The notes below the pieces were generated by a model. The model was given only the letters and a program-made list of their open reading frames with translations, was not told the DNA's origin and ran no database searches. The position numbers and the translations under genes are program-made. Positions 6,185 through 62,141 of a stretch of DNA of 64,000 nt are shown here, piece after piece; position 1 is the stretch's first letter, and the number at the start of each line of letters is the position of its first letter. The stretch is from Marvania coccoides. Taxonomy: Eukaryota > Chlorophyta > Trebouxiophyceae > Chlorellales > Chlorellaceae. Location: NCBI GenBank assembly GCA_963854735.1, contig OY978103.1:1054001-1118000 (forward strand), written 5' to 3'.

Positions 6185-6615
6185 GGTGCCGGGCAAAGGC
6201 TCTCAGGCAGACAGGTTCGTAAGCACGCCGAGAAAAAAAATGTGTTGGGCTCCTTGATGATTAGCAAGGAAGCAGAACGATGAATGACCGAGAAAGTATG
6301 GGTTCAAGGGTCTCTTAAATACCGAGATAGCGCGTTCGTGCGTAGCGAATGTAAATATTGTGGGAGGAGGCACGGTGGGCCAAGAGATTTAAGAGGCTTT
6401 GCACGAAGAAAAAAATCCGCGGGGAAAACCGCCAGTTTCTCGCGTGTGAAGAGGAATTATGCCCGATCCCTGCTAATGTTAACACCTATTAATTCTGTGT
6501 ACTTATTCTGAGGACGCTGCAGCCTCCCGACGCCACCCCTTTCCCTCCCACATCCATCTCCACAAAAAAGTGTGGATAACTTTCGCTGTTGGCGCTCGCA
6601 CACGCACCCAACGCC
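6185..6615. other. Divergent promoter region DHH1/TATC
   Basis: This 431-bp spacer between two divergently transcribed genes must contain both 5' UTRs and core promoters. I see no defined box that I can name. Confidence 0.5.
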
Positions 6616-7608
6616 ATGACCGCCCTCACCGTCGCGCTGGCGGACCGGCGTCTCACCCCGCTGGCCGCCAGCTGCTCCTCCCGCTGCTCGCCCTCCCTTC
6701 GCCTGGTGTCGTCCCCTCTCCGCCGCGGCCCCGCCATGCACCGCCCCCGCGCGCAGCCGGAGGACTCCGAAGCCACGCCGGTCGATGCAGAAGCCCCGCG
6801 TCCCCTCTCCCTGGCGCCTCCGCTCCCCGGGGAAGCCCGGGCGGCGGTGGAAAACTGGATGAACCCCGACCCCGAAGATCTTCCTACCGGCTTCGAAATG
6901 CCGATCTGGGACCACCTGGAGGAGCTGCGGGAGCGCGTGTTGGTGGGCGCACTGGCCGCCGGCATCGCCGTGGCCACCTGCTTCTGCTTCAGCAAAGACC
7001 TGGTGGTGTTTCTGGAGGCGCCGGTGGCGGAAAAGGGCGTTCGCTTCCTGCAGCTCTCCCCGGGGGAGTTTTTCTTCACCACCATCAAGGTGGGCGGCTA
7101 CTCGGGACTGCTGCTGGCGGTGCCCACCGTGCTGTACGAAATTATTGCCTACGTGGTGCCCGGACTGACTAAGAGCGAGCGGAACTTTTTGGCGCCAGTC
7201 ATTTTCGGCTCTTCCATCCTGTTCTACGCGGGGCTGTTCTTCTCGTACGAGATCCTCACCCCCGCGGCGCTCAACTTCTTCGTGTCGTACGCCGAGGGCG
7301 CGGTGGAAAGTCTGTGGAGCATTGATCAGTACTTTGAATTTGTCCTGGTATTGATGCTTTCTACCGGACTTTCTTTTCAAGTCCCTGTCATCCAGGTGAT
7401 GCTGGGGCAGCTGGGCATCGTGTCCAGCGAGGCCATGTTCAGCCAATGGCGGTTCGTGGTGGTGGGGGCGACAGTGGCGGCAGCGGTGCTCACGCCTTCA
7501 ACGGATCCCTTCACTCAGACGCTGCTGGCGGTGCCGCTGATTGGGCTCTACATGGGCGGCGCATCCGTGGTGCGGCTGCTGGAGGCGCGCCGGGCGCAAG
7601 CAGCGTAG
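6616..7608 (+). CDS. TATC: Thylakoid TatC, twin-arginine translocase subunit
   Basis: Core receptor subunit of the delta-pH/Tat pathway that moves folded proteins into the thylakoid lumen. It is a single-exon gene of 330 aa from the first ATG at 6616 to TAG at 7606-7608. The first 90 or so residues are a Ser/Ala/Arg-rich transit peptide followed by an acidic linker. The mature part begins with [14 protein letters not shown], the TatC N-terminal signature that binds twin-arginine peptides, and has six predicted membrane segments. The segment [20 protein letters not shown] matches TatC. It is intronless, unlike almost every neighbour, and nuclear-encoded, as in green algae and plants. Confidence 0.95.
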
Positions 7609-7838
7609 AGGTGGTGACCACTTTCTAGAAATGAACAACTCTCTTTGAAAATTTGCCGTTTATTTTAATTTACACTGTGTTTTTCTTGAATGAAAAGGCG
7701 TTACTCAGTTGTTTGTAAACAAAATGGCCATTTATTTCAGCATCGTCACTTTGGCTGAGAGAGAACAACAGCCAAACAATAAAAGAGGGACGGGGCTAGC
7801 TAGCAACGAGATATTTCTTGTAAATTTGTTTTTCAACG

Positions 7839-7906
7839 CTTCGAAAGGGTTCGGCCCTTTGCAGACTGTTATAAGCCGTTGCGCAAAAGGGCGTCATAAT
7901 TCGAAG
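7839..7906 (-). promoter_or_regulatory. Candidate SECIS element in the 3' UTR of selenoprotein K
   Basis: Read on the minus strand, a 7-bp basal stem CTTCGAA (7900-7906) pairs with TTCGAAG (7839-7845). It is followed by AUGA (7894-7897), an upper helix GCCCTTT plus GC with one bulged base (7883-7892) pairing with GCAAAGGGC (7854-7862), an apical loop carrying unpaired AA (7879-7880), and the partner GA (7851-7852). This matches the eukaryotic SECIS core AUGA...AA...GA with 13 nt between AUGA and AA. It lies about 200 nt downstream of the in-frame UGA of the SelK gene, the expected position. The pairing was done by eye. Confidence 0.8.
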
Positions 7907-8012
7907 GTCCGTGCTATGCTACCCACCCCATCGAAACGTTAGGTATGGCACGCCCTGTTGAAGAAAACTAGGGACGGCCGGTAGAAGAAAATATGAAAGA
8001 GAATTAAACAAC

Positions 8013-8044
8013 GAAAAGAAAGAAAGAAAGAAAGAAAGAAAGAG
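8013..8044. repeat. AAAG tetranucleotide microsatellite
   Basis: About seven tandem GAAA units, lying between the SelK stop codon and its SECIS, so it varies the length of the 3' UTR. Confidence 0.85.
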
Positions 8045-8094
8045 ACTGGAAAGAGGAAGAACGTGCTCATCTGCAGTGGTGTGCTGCAGACGAG

Positions 8095-8555
8095 CTACCG
8101 TCCTCAGGCCCCTGCAGCGCAGTTGCCACCTGCGTCTCGAAAATCCGAAAGCCCGGCAATGCGCCGCTGAGGGCCACCGCCGCCTCCGCCGCTGGGACCG
8201 CCGCCACCACCACCACCTCCAAATCCGCCCTTGCCCCTGCCCTTTCGCTTGGCGTAGTCGTCGGCGGCTTTGGGGTCGAAAATAGTTTTGAAGAAGACGG
8301 TGAGAATCTCAACAAAGCTCCAGAAGAGGTTACACCACGACCGCGACCCCGTCACCATCTGACCTGTAAGATTGAAAGAGAAACACGCATGTTTGAGCTT
8401 TGAACGCATTTTTTTCCAATAGACATGTGTTCTCTGTTGGAATTTTCAAAGTGAAACGGAGGCGTGTTTAGTCGCAGACGTGACAGATTTTGTTTTATGA
8501 GAATGATACATAGTTGTGAGCGCAGCCTCTCACCTCCTCTAGACACCCAGACCAT
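8095..8555 (-). CDS. SELENOK: Selenoprotein K with UGA-encoded selenocysteine
   Basis: Small ER membrane selenoprotein linked to ER stress and palmitoylation. Exon 1 is only 22 bp (8534-8555) and exon 2 is 8095-8363. The protein has 96 aa: a short N-terminus, one membrane helix around residues 18-40 (LFWSFVEILTVFFKTIF), then a basic Gly-rich tail typical of SelK. The frame meets TGA at 8104-8106; reading it as Sec gives the ending GAUGR before TAG at 8095-8097, matching the conserved SelK C-terminus GGUGR with Sec third from the end. A SECIS-like fold lies downstream. An ordinary gene caller would stop at the UGA and lose Sec94-Gly-Arg. A Cys also occurs at residue 89. Confidence 0.9.
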
Positions 8556-9056
8556 TCTTGAGTTAAATGTCAAGGTCTCCTCTCTTCCGTGGAGTCCGCA
8601 CGCACCACTATCTCCCCAAGTCTTCTCTTTCTATATGTACTTTATAAATATAAAAATTTAAGACATCGTGGTCGTGCCTTGTCATGGCTCTTTCTACAAA
8701 GCTGACTGGCCATGGCCATGGCAAGCTCAATCTGACTTCCCTTATTGCTGACTTTATGATCGACGTTTCCTGCCTGTTTAAAATTGAGGTAAAATTATAA
8801 GTCACTGCACTCGGGAGGGCTAGTGACCTGGACAGGACTTTGCGGGTAACAAACATGTAATTGTAGTTGAGCGTGTGGTGCTGCAACTGAACGAGAAGTT
8901 CATTGGCAGAGGTGGGGGTGAGCCCCATGGCGGGAAGCAGGATTCGAATTGCTGCTGGGTGCAAATTCGAGCAAAAATTGCGCAATTTTTCCTTCCACTT
9001 TGAATGCGGCTTTTCTCAGAACCTCGGCTTCCAATTGTCAATAAAAAAAAAACACA
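8556..9056. other. Divergent promoter region SELENOK/SDR
   Basis: A 501-bp spacer between divergent genes. A minus-strand open frame overlaps it, but I could not support it as a gene. It ends in an A run directly before the SDR start codon. Confidence 0.5.
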
Positions 9057-36338: not shown

Positions 36339-39300
36339 TCACACCACCACAGTCGCTCCCTCCTCAGCTCTCCACACCCCAGGGAGAAGAACGCTCGCCT
36401 TTCTCTGACCATCCGCGGGCGCGAGCACGTATGGCGCGGTCACCCTGGCGCCGTCACTATTACGCAAGCTGCCAGCCAACAAAACCACATGAGCGTTGCT
36501 GCCGGCGGAGGGGCTCTCAAAGCTCTGCCCATGCCTCAACCGCACCACCCGCCCCTGCAGCGCCGCTCTTGCCCGCTCTTCGTCCACCTCCACAGCTTGC
36601 CCCAGCATCTTGGCGTTTTCCACCACAAACACAGCGCTCAGCCGGAGCAGCGCGTCCTCCAGCGCCGCAAACTCCACGCCGCCGCGCAGCAGCTGCTCCA
36701 CCGCAGCCTGCGGCAGGTGAAACACCACGGGGCCGCGCCCCAGCGCGTTCCCTTCAGCCAGCGCCAGCTCAGCCACTCCAGGAAGAAAGGTGCCCGTCAG
36801 GCACAACAGCTCCCCGACCACGCCGCCCGGACCCTGAAAGTACTCTTTAACCGGCGCGCCATTCTTAGTCAGCACCCTCCGCACCACGCCACTCAGCACC
36901 ACAAACAGCCCCGCCCGTGGCTCCCCGCTCCAGATCGGCTGCCCCTTTCGGCACCCTAAAATAGCGCCAGCGGCGTACACCTTGCGGAACGCCGCGTCCG
37001 GGAGGGTGGCCATGAACGGGAGAGACCGCAGCACCGCTTTGGGGCGGGGTGGTTGCCACACAGGGCCCACCAGCTCCAGGTGGCGGACTTTCCGGTCGAT
37101 GGGGTCAGACAGGGCCTCCTCTTCAGCCTCGTCCACCGCTCCCGCCTGGAACAGCTCCCCAGTGAAGCGCAGCTGCTGCCGCAGCACCGCCATGGCGGCA
37201 CGGTAGCTCTGAATGGCTGTAAAAAGGTCTGGCGCCTCGATTTCCCGCTCGATGATGAAGCGATGGGCAGCAGCGCTGTCGGCCTCGATGTCGTCCAGCA
37301 GCGCCCGCCACGCCCCTGCGTGCTCCTCCCGCTTCAACCACCGGATCTGAGGCACGTTGTTGGATCCCAGCGCGAGGTACAGCTCAACCGCCACCTCGCA
37401 GCCGACCAGCATCCTGCGCCCCAAGAACCGCCGCAGCCCCGCGGAAACCTTCTTGAAGGGCCAGGAAAAGGCGCCGCGGAGGAAGCTCGGCAGCCCGCGG
37501 TAGGCGCGCAGCGTGGCGAGGGAGAGCCTGGACGCTGCGCGAGCGGCCCAGCCGCCCCTGATTTCAGCTTCTATAATTGGCCATAGCCGCAGCGTGGAGG
37601 GCTCTCGCTCCATCACCTCATCGCAAGAGTAGTCCAGGATGCGCAGGCCACGGGTGGACAGCATTCCGGCCCCTCTGCGAGCTGCGAAATGCCGCTTCAG
37701 GCCTGCCACAGCTCGCCTCACTTCTTCTAAAACAATCTCTTCGGAGGGCAAACTTGGCTCGCTGGGAGGCACGTCAAGCTTCCCACCCGCAGCTGCGGGG
37801 CCAAAGCGGCTGCCCAGTCGCCCGTTCTTGCCTTCAAAGTCGAAAACTGAGCTGGGCGTGGCATCGGTTGTCGGTGTCCCGTCGGCATCGCTGCTGAAGC
37901 CGTCAGAAGGCAGGGTGAGGGGCACCAGCCCGCCAGGGAAGTCTCCACGTGGCTTTTCTAGAGCAGATGTACGCCTGATGTGCAGCGCGGCGGCCACTGG
38001 GGCCATGCCAGAAGCTCTCCGGGGAACATTAGCAGCAGCTGGAAACCGGCCGTCCCGAGGGCTTTCCTCGTCGCTGGGGGCCAATAAAACGCTGTTTGCT
38101 CGCCTCCGTCCCAGCAGGTCTCTCCCTGGAGATGCCGCGGCGCTGGAAGACCGCTCCGCTATGACCCGCGTCAGCATTTGCTTCAGCTCCGCTGCAAGCC
38201 GCTTCCCAGATGCGCCGCTCACCGTGGCGGTCGCACCAGCTGACGGCCCAGCTTCCTCCTCCCATGATTCTGGTTCTTGGCCGGCGTCTGCTGCGTGCTG
38301 GCGCAGCTCTGTTTGCAGCTGCGCCTGCACTGTGCGGCCGACTGCTGCCGGCATGCTACTCGTGGTGCCAAATGAAGGGCGAGAAGAGGAACCGGAGGAC
38401 CTCAGTGTGCTTCCCCGCGCTTGACTGCCCAGCGAGCTGCGCAGCTCGTTCAGCAGCGCTGCGCCTGCTGCGCCCCGCACGCTGTGCTCTGCTGCCAGCG
38501 TTTCTGTCTCTGAAATCGACACCAGGCTTGCGCTGCTCCCGCTGCTGCGCACGCCGGGCGCAAGCTGCCGCAAGCTGCTGCCCCGCGCGGCCGCGCTGCT
38601 GCCCCCGCCTTCCAGCTGCTGAAGCTCAATTGCCCCTGCTGCTTCTGCCGATTCCCCTCGCTCCAGATCCACAACGCCGTTGGAGTCAGAGGTGAGGTGC
38701 ACCGCAGCCTGGAGTTTCCCTTCGGTTCCAGCTTCCCCGTCGGTCTCATTTTGGCGCACGTGAAGATAGGGACACTCCACTCGGTCTTGAGCCCAGTCAG
38801 CGTCAATCTCACCCCACTGCCCCGCTCCTCCTTTGCCCTCATACTGCTGCTGCTGCTTCTGGGAGACTCCTCCAGACCCCTCACCGCTAGATGCACTCAG
38901 CACTGTGAACGACTGGCTGGTGGAGGCATCAACGGCAGCCAGCTGCTCCTGCCGCCGCCGCTGCCAGAATTTCCAGCGCAGCGATGCCGCCCACTGACGT
39001 GTGCCGCGCAGCGCGCCTCTCCACAGCGTTTTCACGACCCCCAGCGTGGTTTTGATGTTGACGTCGATGGTGGCAGAGGCAGCGGGTTTGGGCGGCGCCT
39101 CGTCGAACCCTTCTGCCGTCACTTGAACGTATTCAGCCACCAAGCTCCAGTCAGCACCTGCAGTGTTTAAAGAATAGAAATTATATAAATATTCATTCTT
39201 TTTATAAATTCAAGAAAATTTGCAAGGGCTTACCTGCCAAAAATTCGTCGTTCTGGCTGGCCTTCAAGGCGGCGACTTTCTGGCCCGTAAACTCCGACAG

Positions 39301-61375: not shown

Positions 61376-62141
61376 ATGTCTCGATTGAGAAGATTAGCTA
61401 CCACACTAGAGTCCACGGCGTGGAATTTGCTGCAGATGCGCGGCCAAAAGACCTGCGCAACCAAGCTGCCGGTGGAGCTGCTGCAGGCAAGTCATTCGCA
61501 CGTGCTCTACACATTGATATCGTCAGATAACAGCCACCTGTGGCAGATTTTCATTTCATTTTTTTTTTGTCTGTTGTTCAGGACGTTGAGGGGCTTGGGC
61601 CTGCTGGCAAGATAATGAAAGTGAATCACGGCTACGCCCGCAACTTCTTGGTGCCCCAGCGGCTGGCAGCCATCCGGCGCGGCAAGCAGAGCGGCTCCAT
61701 TGGCGGCACAGAAGGCGGGAGAGTGGGAGCTGGCCAAATTGTCACCTCACAGGAGGAGCTGCAGCGCCTACAGGCCGAAAAACAGCAGAAGCGACTAGAA
61801 GCGGCCGTGAAGAAGCTCACAACGGTGCCATTGGTCCGTTTTCAATCATTTTTTGCTATTTTTCAAAACTATTTGTTTTACCGTTTTTCTCTCTTCCCAC
61901 TGTCCTTCTTTTGCAGACTATTCGACGGAAAGCGAGCGAGGAGGGCGAGTTGGACGCTCCAGTGGCGGCAGAGGACATTGCGGATGCGGTGGCTCGGCAG
62001 ATGCAGATCGAGATCGTGCCAGAGTTGCTGGACATCGGCGGTGACAAACTGAGCATGGTGGGGGAATACTCCCTGCCGCTGAAGATGTTGCTGCCGGGCG
62101 ATAAGAAGGCGACCATGGACGTTACCATCGTCTCGACTTGA
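61376..62141 (+). CDS. RPL9: Organellar ribosomal protein bL9
   Basis: Large-subunit ribosomal protein of the bacterial type, in mitochondrion or plastid. Exons 61376-61486, 61582-61833 and 61917-62141 give 195 aa. The N-terminus (MSRLRRLATTLESTAW) is Arg/Ser-rich, looking mitochondrial. The L9 N-domain signature DVEGLGPAGKIMKVNHGYARNFLVP begins exactly at exon 2, and the long helix and C-domain follow. The first intron has a perfect GC donor (CAG then GCAAGT) and phase 0; no GT donor would join VELLQ to DVEGLG in frame. It is a clean example of a GC-AG intron. Confidence 0.92.

Follow-up and report, generated by a model that had tools for sequence, protein, structure and literature searches.

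Gene structure of a SelK locus with an in-frame UGA codon

The window analysed here, a stretch of 64,000 nucleotides from Marvania coccoides, carries on its minus strand a gene of the selenoprotein K (SelK, SELENOK) family, followed in the predicted 3' UTR by a SECIS hairpin. The span from 7839 to 8555 that a sequence-only reading had assigned to gene and hairpin proved correct to the base, with the A of the ATG start codon at 8555 and the final base of the basal stem at 7839. The features of the gene are the following:

8534..8555, minus strand: SelK exon 1, 22 nt, encoding MVWVSRG and contributing one base to a split Gly codon; the start resembles MVYI (homologs P0009, P0010 and P0014)
8364..8533, minus strand: predicted GT-AG intron, 170 nt, with GTGAGA at its 5' end and TTACAG at its 3' end
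8095..8363, minus strand: SelK exon 2, with the hydrophobic segment, the Gly-rich tail and the C-terminus through TAG
8104..8106, minus strand: in-frame UGA, proposed selenocysteine (Sec) 94, directly after the last residue of 13/13 relatives
8095..8097, minus strand: TAG, read from the sequence and proposed as the true stop after Gly-Arg

When the intron was read unspliced, the first 40 codons were devoid of SelK-like sequence. The 3' end of the gene reads GCC TGA GGA CGG TAG, i.e., Ala-UGA-Gly-Arg-stop, and the protein ends in GNCAAGA-U-G-R-stop. In the gene model rebuilt from the sequence, the SelK product is MVWVSRGGQMVTGSRSWCNLFWSFVEILTVFFKTIFDPKAADDYAKRKGRGKGGFGGGGGGGGPSGGGGGGPQRRIAGLSDFRDAGGNCAAGA-U-GR, 96 residues with Sec 94 as the third from the end. 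The arrangement claimed previously, TGA followed by Gly-Arg-TAG with Sec third from the end of a 96-residue product, is therefore present, at 8106-8095. Sec at the third position from the C-terminus, followed by Gly-Arg-stop, is the SELENOK pattern.

Two other elements were observed close to the gene. A run of TTTC repeats lies at about 8017-8043 of the window (minus strand), in the 3' UTR between the SelK stop codon and the SECIS. On the plus strand, a frame that is TatC-like by eye (window 6580-7608) converges on SelK, with its stop approximately 230 nt beyond the SECIS.

Family assignment and relatives

A Pfam search with the SelK product returned one family, SelK_SelG (PF10961; E 1.5e-9, 38.7 bits compared to a cut-off of 23.3), over residues 2-83. 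Comparison of the 96-residue product with SELENOK, as suggested by the sequence-only reading, thus gave a match over the curated cut-off. In this genome, PF10961 exceeded its cut-off in the SelK gene only. A possible second copy, matching PF10961 at window positions 61823-61993, scored 22.2 bits, below the cut-off; it is located inside an apparent intron (by eye) of a ribosomal L9-like gene and was taken as a chance match. A PDB sequence search with the product gave 24 matches at E up to 1, none of them named SelK and most falling on the Gly-rich part.

Relatives were sought among approximately 5.8 billion proteins, the search being restricted to those of similar length that had short words in common with the query. 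Thirteen of the 17 candidates reached E ≤0.001, and all 13 matched PF10961. Each of these 13 relatives, compared as protein records, ends in GGNCAAGA, i.e., at the residue just before the UGA described here. Identical ends of this kind are expected from unrecognised Sec codons, as gene-calling programs treat every UGA as a stop. The ten residues preceding the UGA, DAGGNCAAGA, were identical in 14/14 sequences (the query and the 13 relatives), and the residues invariant among the relatives include F31-I35, D37, P38 and D84-A93. SelK was not found in contig scans of two collections (viral_contigs and genome_contigs).

The product resembles SELENOK in its short N-terminus, in its one hydrophobic segment leading into FFKTI and in its Gly-rich basic tail, as well as in the Sec-Gly-Arg C-terminus and in the SECIS within the 3' UTR; nothing was different in kind. 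The algal tail, DAGGNCAAGA-U-G-R, corresponds to the subgroup seen in the 13 relatives, whereas the tail of human SELENOK differs just before UGR. According to an excerpt of PMC7539508, SELENOK occurs in algae almost exclusively in its Sec form, and an excerpt of PMC2375036 lists it for Ostreococcus and counts it among the most widespread selenoproteins. As SelK is already known as a widespread algal selenoprotein, the gene described here is an ordinary new member of the family with an established mechanism.

Anatomy of the SECIS hairpin

The hairpin downstream of the SelK stop codon comprises the following parts:

7839..7906, minus strand: whole SECIS element, 68 nt, in the 3' UTR (predicted fold and grammar match)
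7900..7906, minus strand: helix I, 5' arm CUUCGAA, 7 bp with 7839-7845
7839..7845, minus strand: helix I, 3' arm UUCGAAG (predicted fold)
7894..7897, minus strand: core AUGA, 5' side of the non-Watson-Crick quartet; AUGAC in 5/5 SECIS-like elements examined
7851..7852, minus strand: core GA, 3' side of the quartet (sequence and grammar)
7879..7880, minus strand: AA above helix II, left unpaired by the predicted fold within a 4-nt loop (CAAC)
7864..7877, minus strand: apical mini-stem GGCU/AGUC, 4 bp, with a 6-nt loop (predicted fold)

The AUGA begins 209 nt downstream of the SelK UGA. In the minimum-energy fold, helix I is followed by an internal loop, two C-G pairs, an upper helix of 9 bp, the 4-nt loop with AA and the 4-bp mini-stem. 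Folding programs do not model the non-Watson-Crick quartet, and the minimum-energy fold pairs two bases adjoining the core instead; aligned in the register customary for SECIS elements, the upper helix consists of 10 pairs and one bulge. Eukaryotic SECIS elements have an upper helix of about 9-13 bp in addition to the basal helix. All parts of the fold that had been proposed about 200 nt downstream, namely AUGA, AA and GA on a 7-bp basal stem and a 9-bp upper helix, were recovered.

When the 68-nt element was folded alone, within limits picked with the structure known, its energy was -21.6 kcal/mol (z -3.05), and 1/200 shuffles was equally stable. The z value of the hairpin was -0.02 in 111 nt of context, and folding energy alone therefore does not single it out.

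The base next to the AA is C rather than a purine, so that the element has AA but not a strict AAR. Eukaryotic SECIS elements are described, in an excerpt of PMC8704476, as having an AUGA/GA core and an AAR loop motif, with variations. The AUGA/GA core, the unpaired AA and the mini-stem above it resemble the SECIS elements of Ostreococcus and Chlamydomonas that carry an apical mini-stem; long mini-stems have been reported for Ostreococcus and for a number of Chlamydomonas elements (PMC2375036, in excerpt). The same excerpt gives a G before the core quartet in Ostreococcus, whereas the SelK element has an A at this position.

Selenocysteine machinery in the genome

The assembly searched comprised 22,462,713 bases in 15 contigs. 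One Rfam match to tRNA-Sec exceeded the cut-off (74.1 bits) and three more fell below it; ARAGORN classified the top match as tRNA-SeC with anticodon TCA. SepSecS was detected at 410 bits, with 3hl2, an O-phosphoseryl-tRNA(Sec) selenium transferase, as its best PDB match (E 1.3e-147), and SPS at 271.8 bits (cut-off 125), by eye in its Cys form. It was also observed that the SPS frame (L025, C4:1526630), with Cys at the catalytic site, comes after a domain that looks by eye to be of the NADH-dehydrogenase type, a possible fusion.

EFSec was represented by two adjoining matches, at C1:255925 and C1:256456. The best PDB match of the frame at C1:256456 was 5izk, a selenocysteine-specific elongation factor (E 3.3e-84), compared to 2.8e-20 for archaeal SelB and 7.5e-14 for EF-Tu, and the Pfam families euk_SelB_III and eEFSec_4th were both over their cut-offs. 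Locus L022 was in this way confirmed as EFSec by PDB and Pfam, and its neighbour L021 was presumed to be an upstream exon of that gene. No genome match to the selB model TIGR00475 reached the cut-off. Among the 26 matches of the EFSec search, eight (L018, L019, L020, L023, L024, L026, L027 and L028) were assigned to other translation GTPases after inspection of their translations by eye.

SBP2 was located at C9:1194501-1194815 (L035), where the sole PDB match was SECIS Binding Protein 2 (E 2.3e-17). A second SBP2-like protein is encoded at C4:1305857-1306084 (L038), again with SECIS Binding Protein 2 (E 5.3e-7) as the only PDB entry matched within an E limit of 0.01. The weakest of the machinery set was PSTK, with two PSTK-like exons below the model cut-off, at C1:561823 (E 1.8e-4) and C1:562149 (E 1.2e-21). 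The latter gave two PDB matches, both L-seryl-tRNA(Sec) kinases (E 3.5e-7), and PSTK is probably present. Thus tRNA-Sec, SBP2 and EFSec, the three components to which the sequence-only reading had pointed, were all found, together with SepSecS, SPS and this probable PSTK.

Other probable selenoprotein genes and glutathione peroxidases

Four further genes of the genome, SelT, SelW and two GPx genes, show a UGA where the Sec codon is expected and are followed by a SECIS-like hairpin, as had been forecast when other UGA-interrupted genes were predicted for this organism. The in-frame TGA lies inside the family match in SelT (FCTSU) and in both GPx genes (NIASKU and NVASLU), while the UGA exon of SelW (YCGGU) was found by eye upstream of the family match. 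SelT and SelW were named from the Rdx family match and from characteristic motifs; by such motifs, the UGAs are presumably located where the families carry Sec. The SECIS-like elements, each with AUGAC...GA and a matching helix, are the following, in locus coordinates:

L007, 2121-2170, plus strand: element of SelT
L008, 1793-1840, plus strand: element of SelW
L011, 1079-1032, minus strand: element of a GPx gene
L013, 1158-1111, minus strand: element of the other GPx gene

Fold z values were -2.58 for SelT, -1.58 for SelW, -1.87 for GPxA and -3.90 for GPxB. Above the helix, AA is found in SelK, SelT and GPxA, and CC in SelW and GPxB; the AA form thus accounts for three of the five and the CC form for two, compared to the unpaired AA of the Ostreococcus/Chlamydomonas type.

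Two other GPx genes have, by eye, Cys at the Sec position, and one of them (L009) appears to end at an ordinary TGA. An AhpC-TSA_2 (SelU-type) match at C3:218892-219374 (minus strand) contains one in-frame TGA and one TAA, and may be a further selenoprotein gene with an intron. No match to SelM/Sep15 was obtained in the genome, nor in the control genomes, so that this result does not establish absence. Candidates for TXNRD, sought as DNA encoding Gly-Cys-UGA-Gly with T-purine-purine next to it on the 3' side, occurred at 24 places vs. 8 for the reversed pattern. Among the 20/24 that were inspected, a final stop was present in 8/20; the 1.4 kb beyond these 8 contained no strict SECIS-like hairpin, and no reductase-like upstream frame was seen by eye, so that these candidates were rejected. 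Of the other four places, three end in a stop.

An excerpt of PMC7539508 gives 0-5 as the number of selenoproteins reported in Trebouxiophyceae, Sphaeropleales and Streptophyta. With its Sec machinery and few selenoproteins, five among the families sought, this genome resembles green algae outside Mamiellales.

Searches with SECIS grammars and covariance models

A generic SECIS grammar (AUGA or GUGA, at least 9 pairs, AA or CC, GA) was written from the general consensus after the SelK element had been seen, with up to one helix defect allowed in its strict form and up to two in its relaxed form. It matched the 320-nt SelK 3' UTR once; among dinucleotide shuffles of this UTR, 0/3000 matched the strict and 2/3000 the relaxed form. 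In the 128,000 strand-bases of the window, 4 places including the SelK element fitted the strict grammar, vs. 0.35 on average (range 0-1) in each of 20 shuffles. With the relaxed grammar, 9 places matched vs. a shuffle mean of 5.2 (range 1-9), and this form is therefore not specific. The further strict places in the window are 17829 (plus strand), 37720 (minus strand) and 18854 (minus strand); that at 37720, inside a 956-residue open frame of the same strand, is probably due to chance.

The other genome loci were searched over 385,272 strand-bases, a figure in which overlapping loci are counted twice, four smaller organelle loci are kept and L005, L006 and ten plastid pieces (L039-L048) are excluded. 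The strict grammar matched 6 distinct places, three of which were the SelW, GPxA and GPxB elements, and the relaxed grammar matched 18, four of them being the SelT, SelW, GPxA and GPxB elements.

The Rfam SECIS models, run with Infernal, gave no match in the window at the gathering threshold, nor in 7400-8600 at E up to 10. In a control on the four other Sec loci of the genome, only three weak matches were obtained, none to a SECIS family. As the Rfam models also miss these four elements, they do not recognise the SECIS of this alga and provide no evidence either way. In the SECIS check put forward with the sequence-only reading, the Rfam models were consequently uninformative, and the element was recognised by the generic grammar, which matched 4/5 elements in its strict and 5/5 in its relaxed form.

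A covariance model of our own, R1, was built from three elements (SelW, GPxA and GPxB), MAFFT having misplaced the SECIS elements in four alignment trials. It placed the SelK element exactly, at 7897-7851, but at rank 18/27 among the window matches (E about 5). Run on eight loci, R1 gave E 0.56 for the SelT element and E 2.1 for the SelK element, so that SECIS elements were not separated from the background.

Interpretation of the UGA codon

Taken together, the locus is best explained as a normal SELENOK gene of a green alga in which the UGA at codon 94 is read as selenocysteine, a reading to which we assign a probability of about 0.96. Decoding of UGA as Sec in this organism, as claimed in the sequence-only reading, is supported by the machinery genes, the anatomy of the SECIS and the four additional genes with UGA and hairpin; judged from these sequence features, UGA is very likely translated in this alga. 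The SelK transcript would be spliced once. The kink-turn formed by AUGA and GA in the 3' UTR hairpin would then be bound by SBP2, which would bring EFSec, carrying Sec-tRNA with its UCA anticodon, to the UGA at codon 94, where Sec would be inserted before translation continues through Gly-Arg to UAG. The expected protein, 96 residues long, would combine a Gly-rich basic tail with a reactive Sec at the third-last position. It is probably a single-pass membrane protein, a topology suggested by the hydrophobic stretch seen by eye. By analogy with known SelK biology, it may have a redox or ER quality-control role.

It might be argued that the UGA is a true stop, that the protein ends at Ala93 and that Gly-Arg-TAG and the hairpin occur by chance, as 13/13 relatives are recorded as ending at that very residue. 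However, stop calling by rule at UGA would yield the same ends, such a hairpin seldom arises by chance (0/3000 or 2/3000 UTR shuffles), and the genome contains both the Sec machinery and four other genes that combine UGA with a SECIS-like hairpin, which makes a genuine stop very unlikely. That the gene is a decayed copy without function appears highly improbable, given that the frame, the splice sites, the residues invariant in the 13 relatives, the UGA and the SECIS are all intact, and that this is the sole PF10961 match over the cut-off in the genome.

Continuation of the frame past UGA in SelK and in four other genes would also be compatible with a variant nuclear code, in which UGA is generally reassigned to an amino acid other than Sec. 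Against this stand the tRNA-SeC with TCA anticodon called by ARAGORN at the Rfam match, the hairpin in each gene together with UGAs at what are, judged by motif, presumably the families' Sec positions, and the Cys-type GPx gene, by eye apparently terminated by an ordinary TGA. We consider the probability of such a code practically negligible.

With Sec as the very likely meaning of these UGAs, at least five genes in this genome would probably be truncated or misplaced by a standard gene caller. The 13 relatives end one residue before the Sec position, and the functional tail is therefore presumably missing from those protein entries. Reading of UGA as Sec is well known in algae, and automatic annotation shortens such proteins. 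To this picture the genome adds the Sec machinery and a small selenoprotein set, consistent with green algae outside Mamiellales (PMC7539508, in excerpt).

The two SBP2-like L7Ae proteins (C9:1194501 and C4:1305857) might serve different SECIS classes, AA and CC, an idea that we regard as speculative and very unlikely. If it were true, selenoproteins would be expressed in two tiers.

RbcL from the plastid contig had 8q04 (1091.8 bits) and 1gk8 (1058.9 bits) as its best PDB matches. These entries are the Chlorella and Chlamydomonas proteins, and land plant entries scored approximately 1000-1026 bits; on this basis, the scores fit a green alga.
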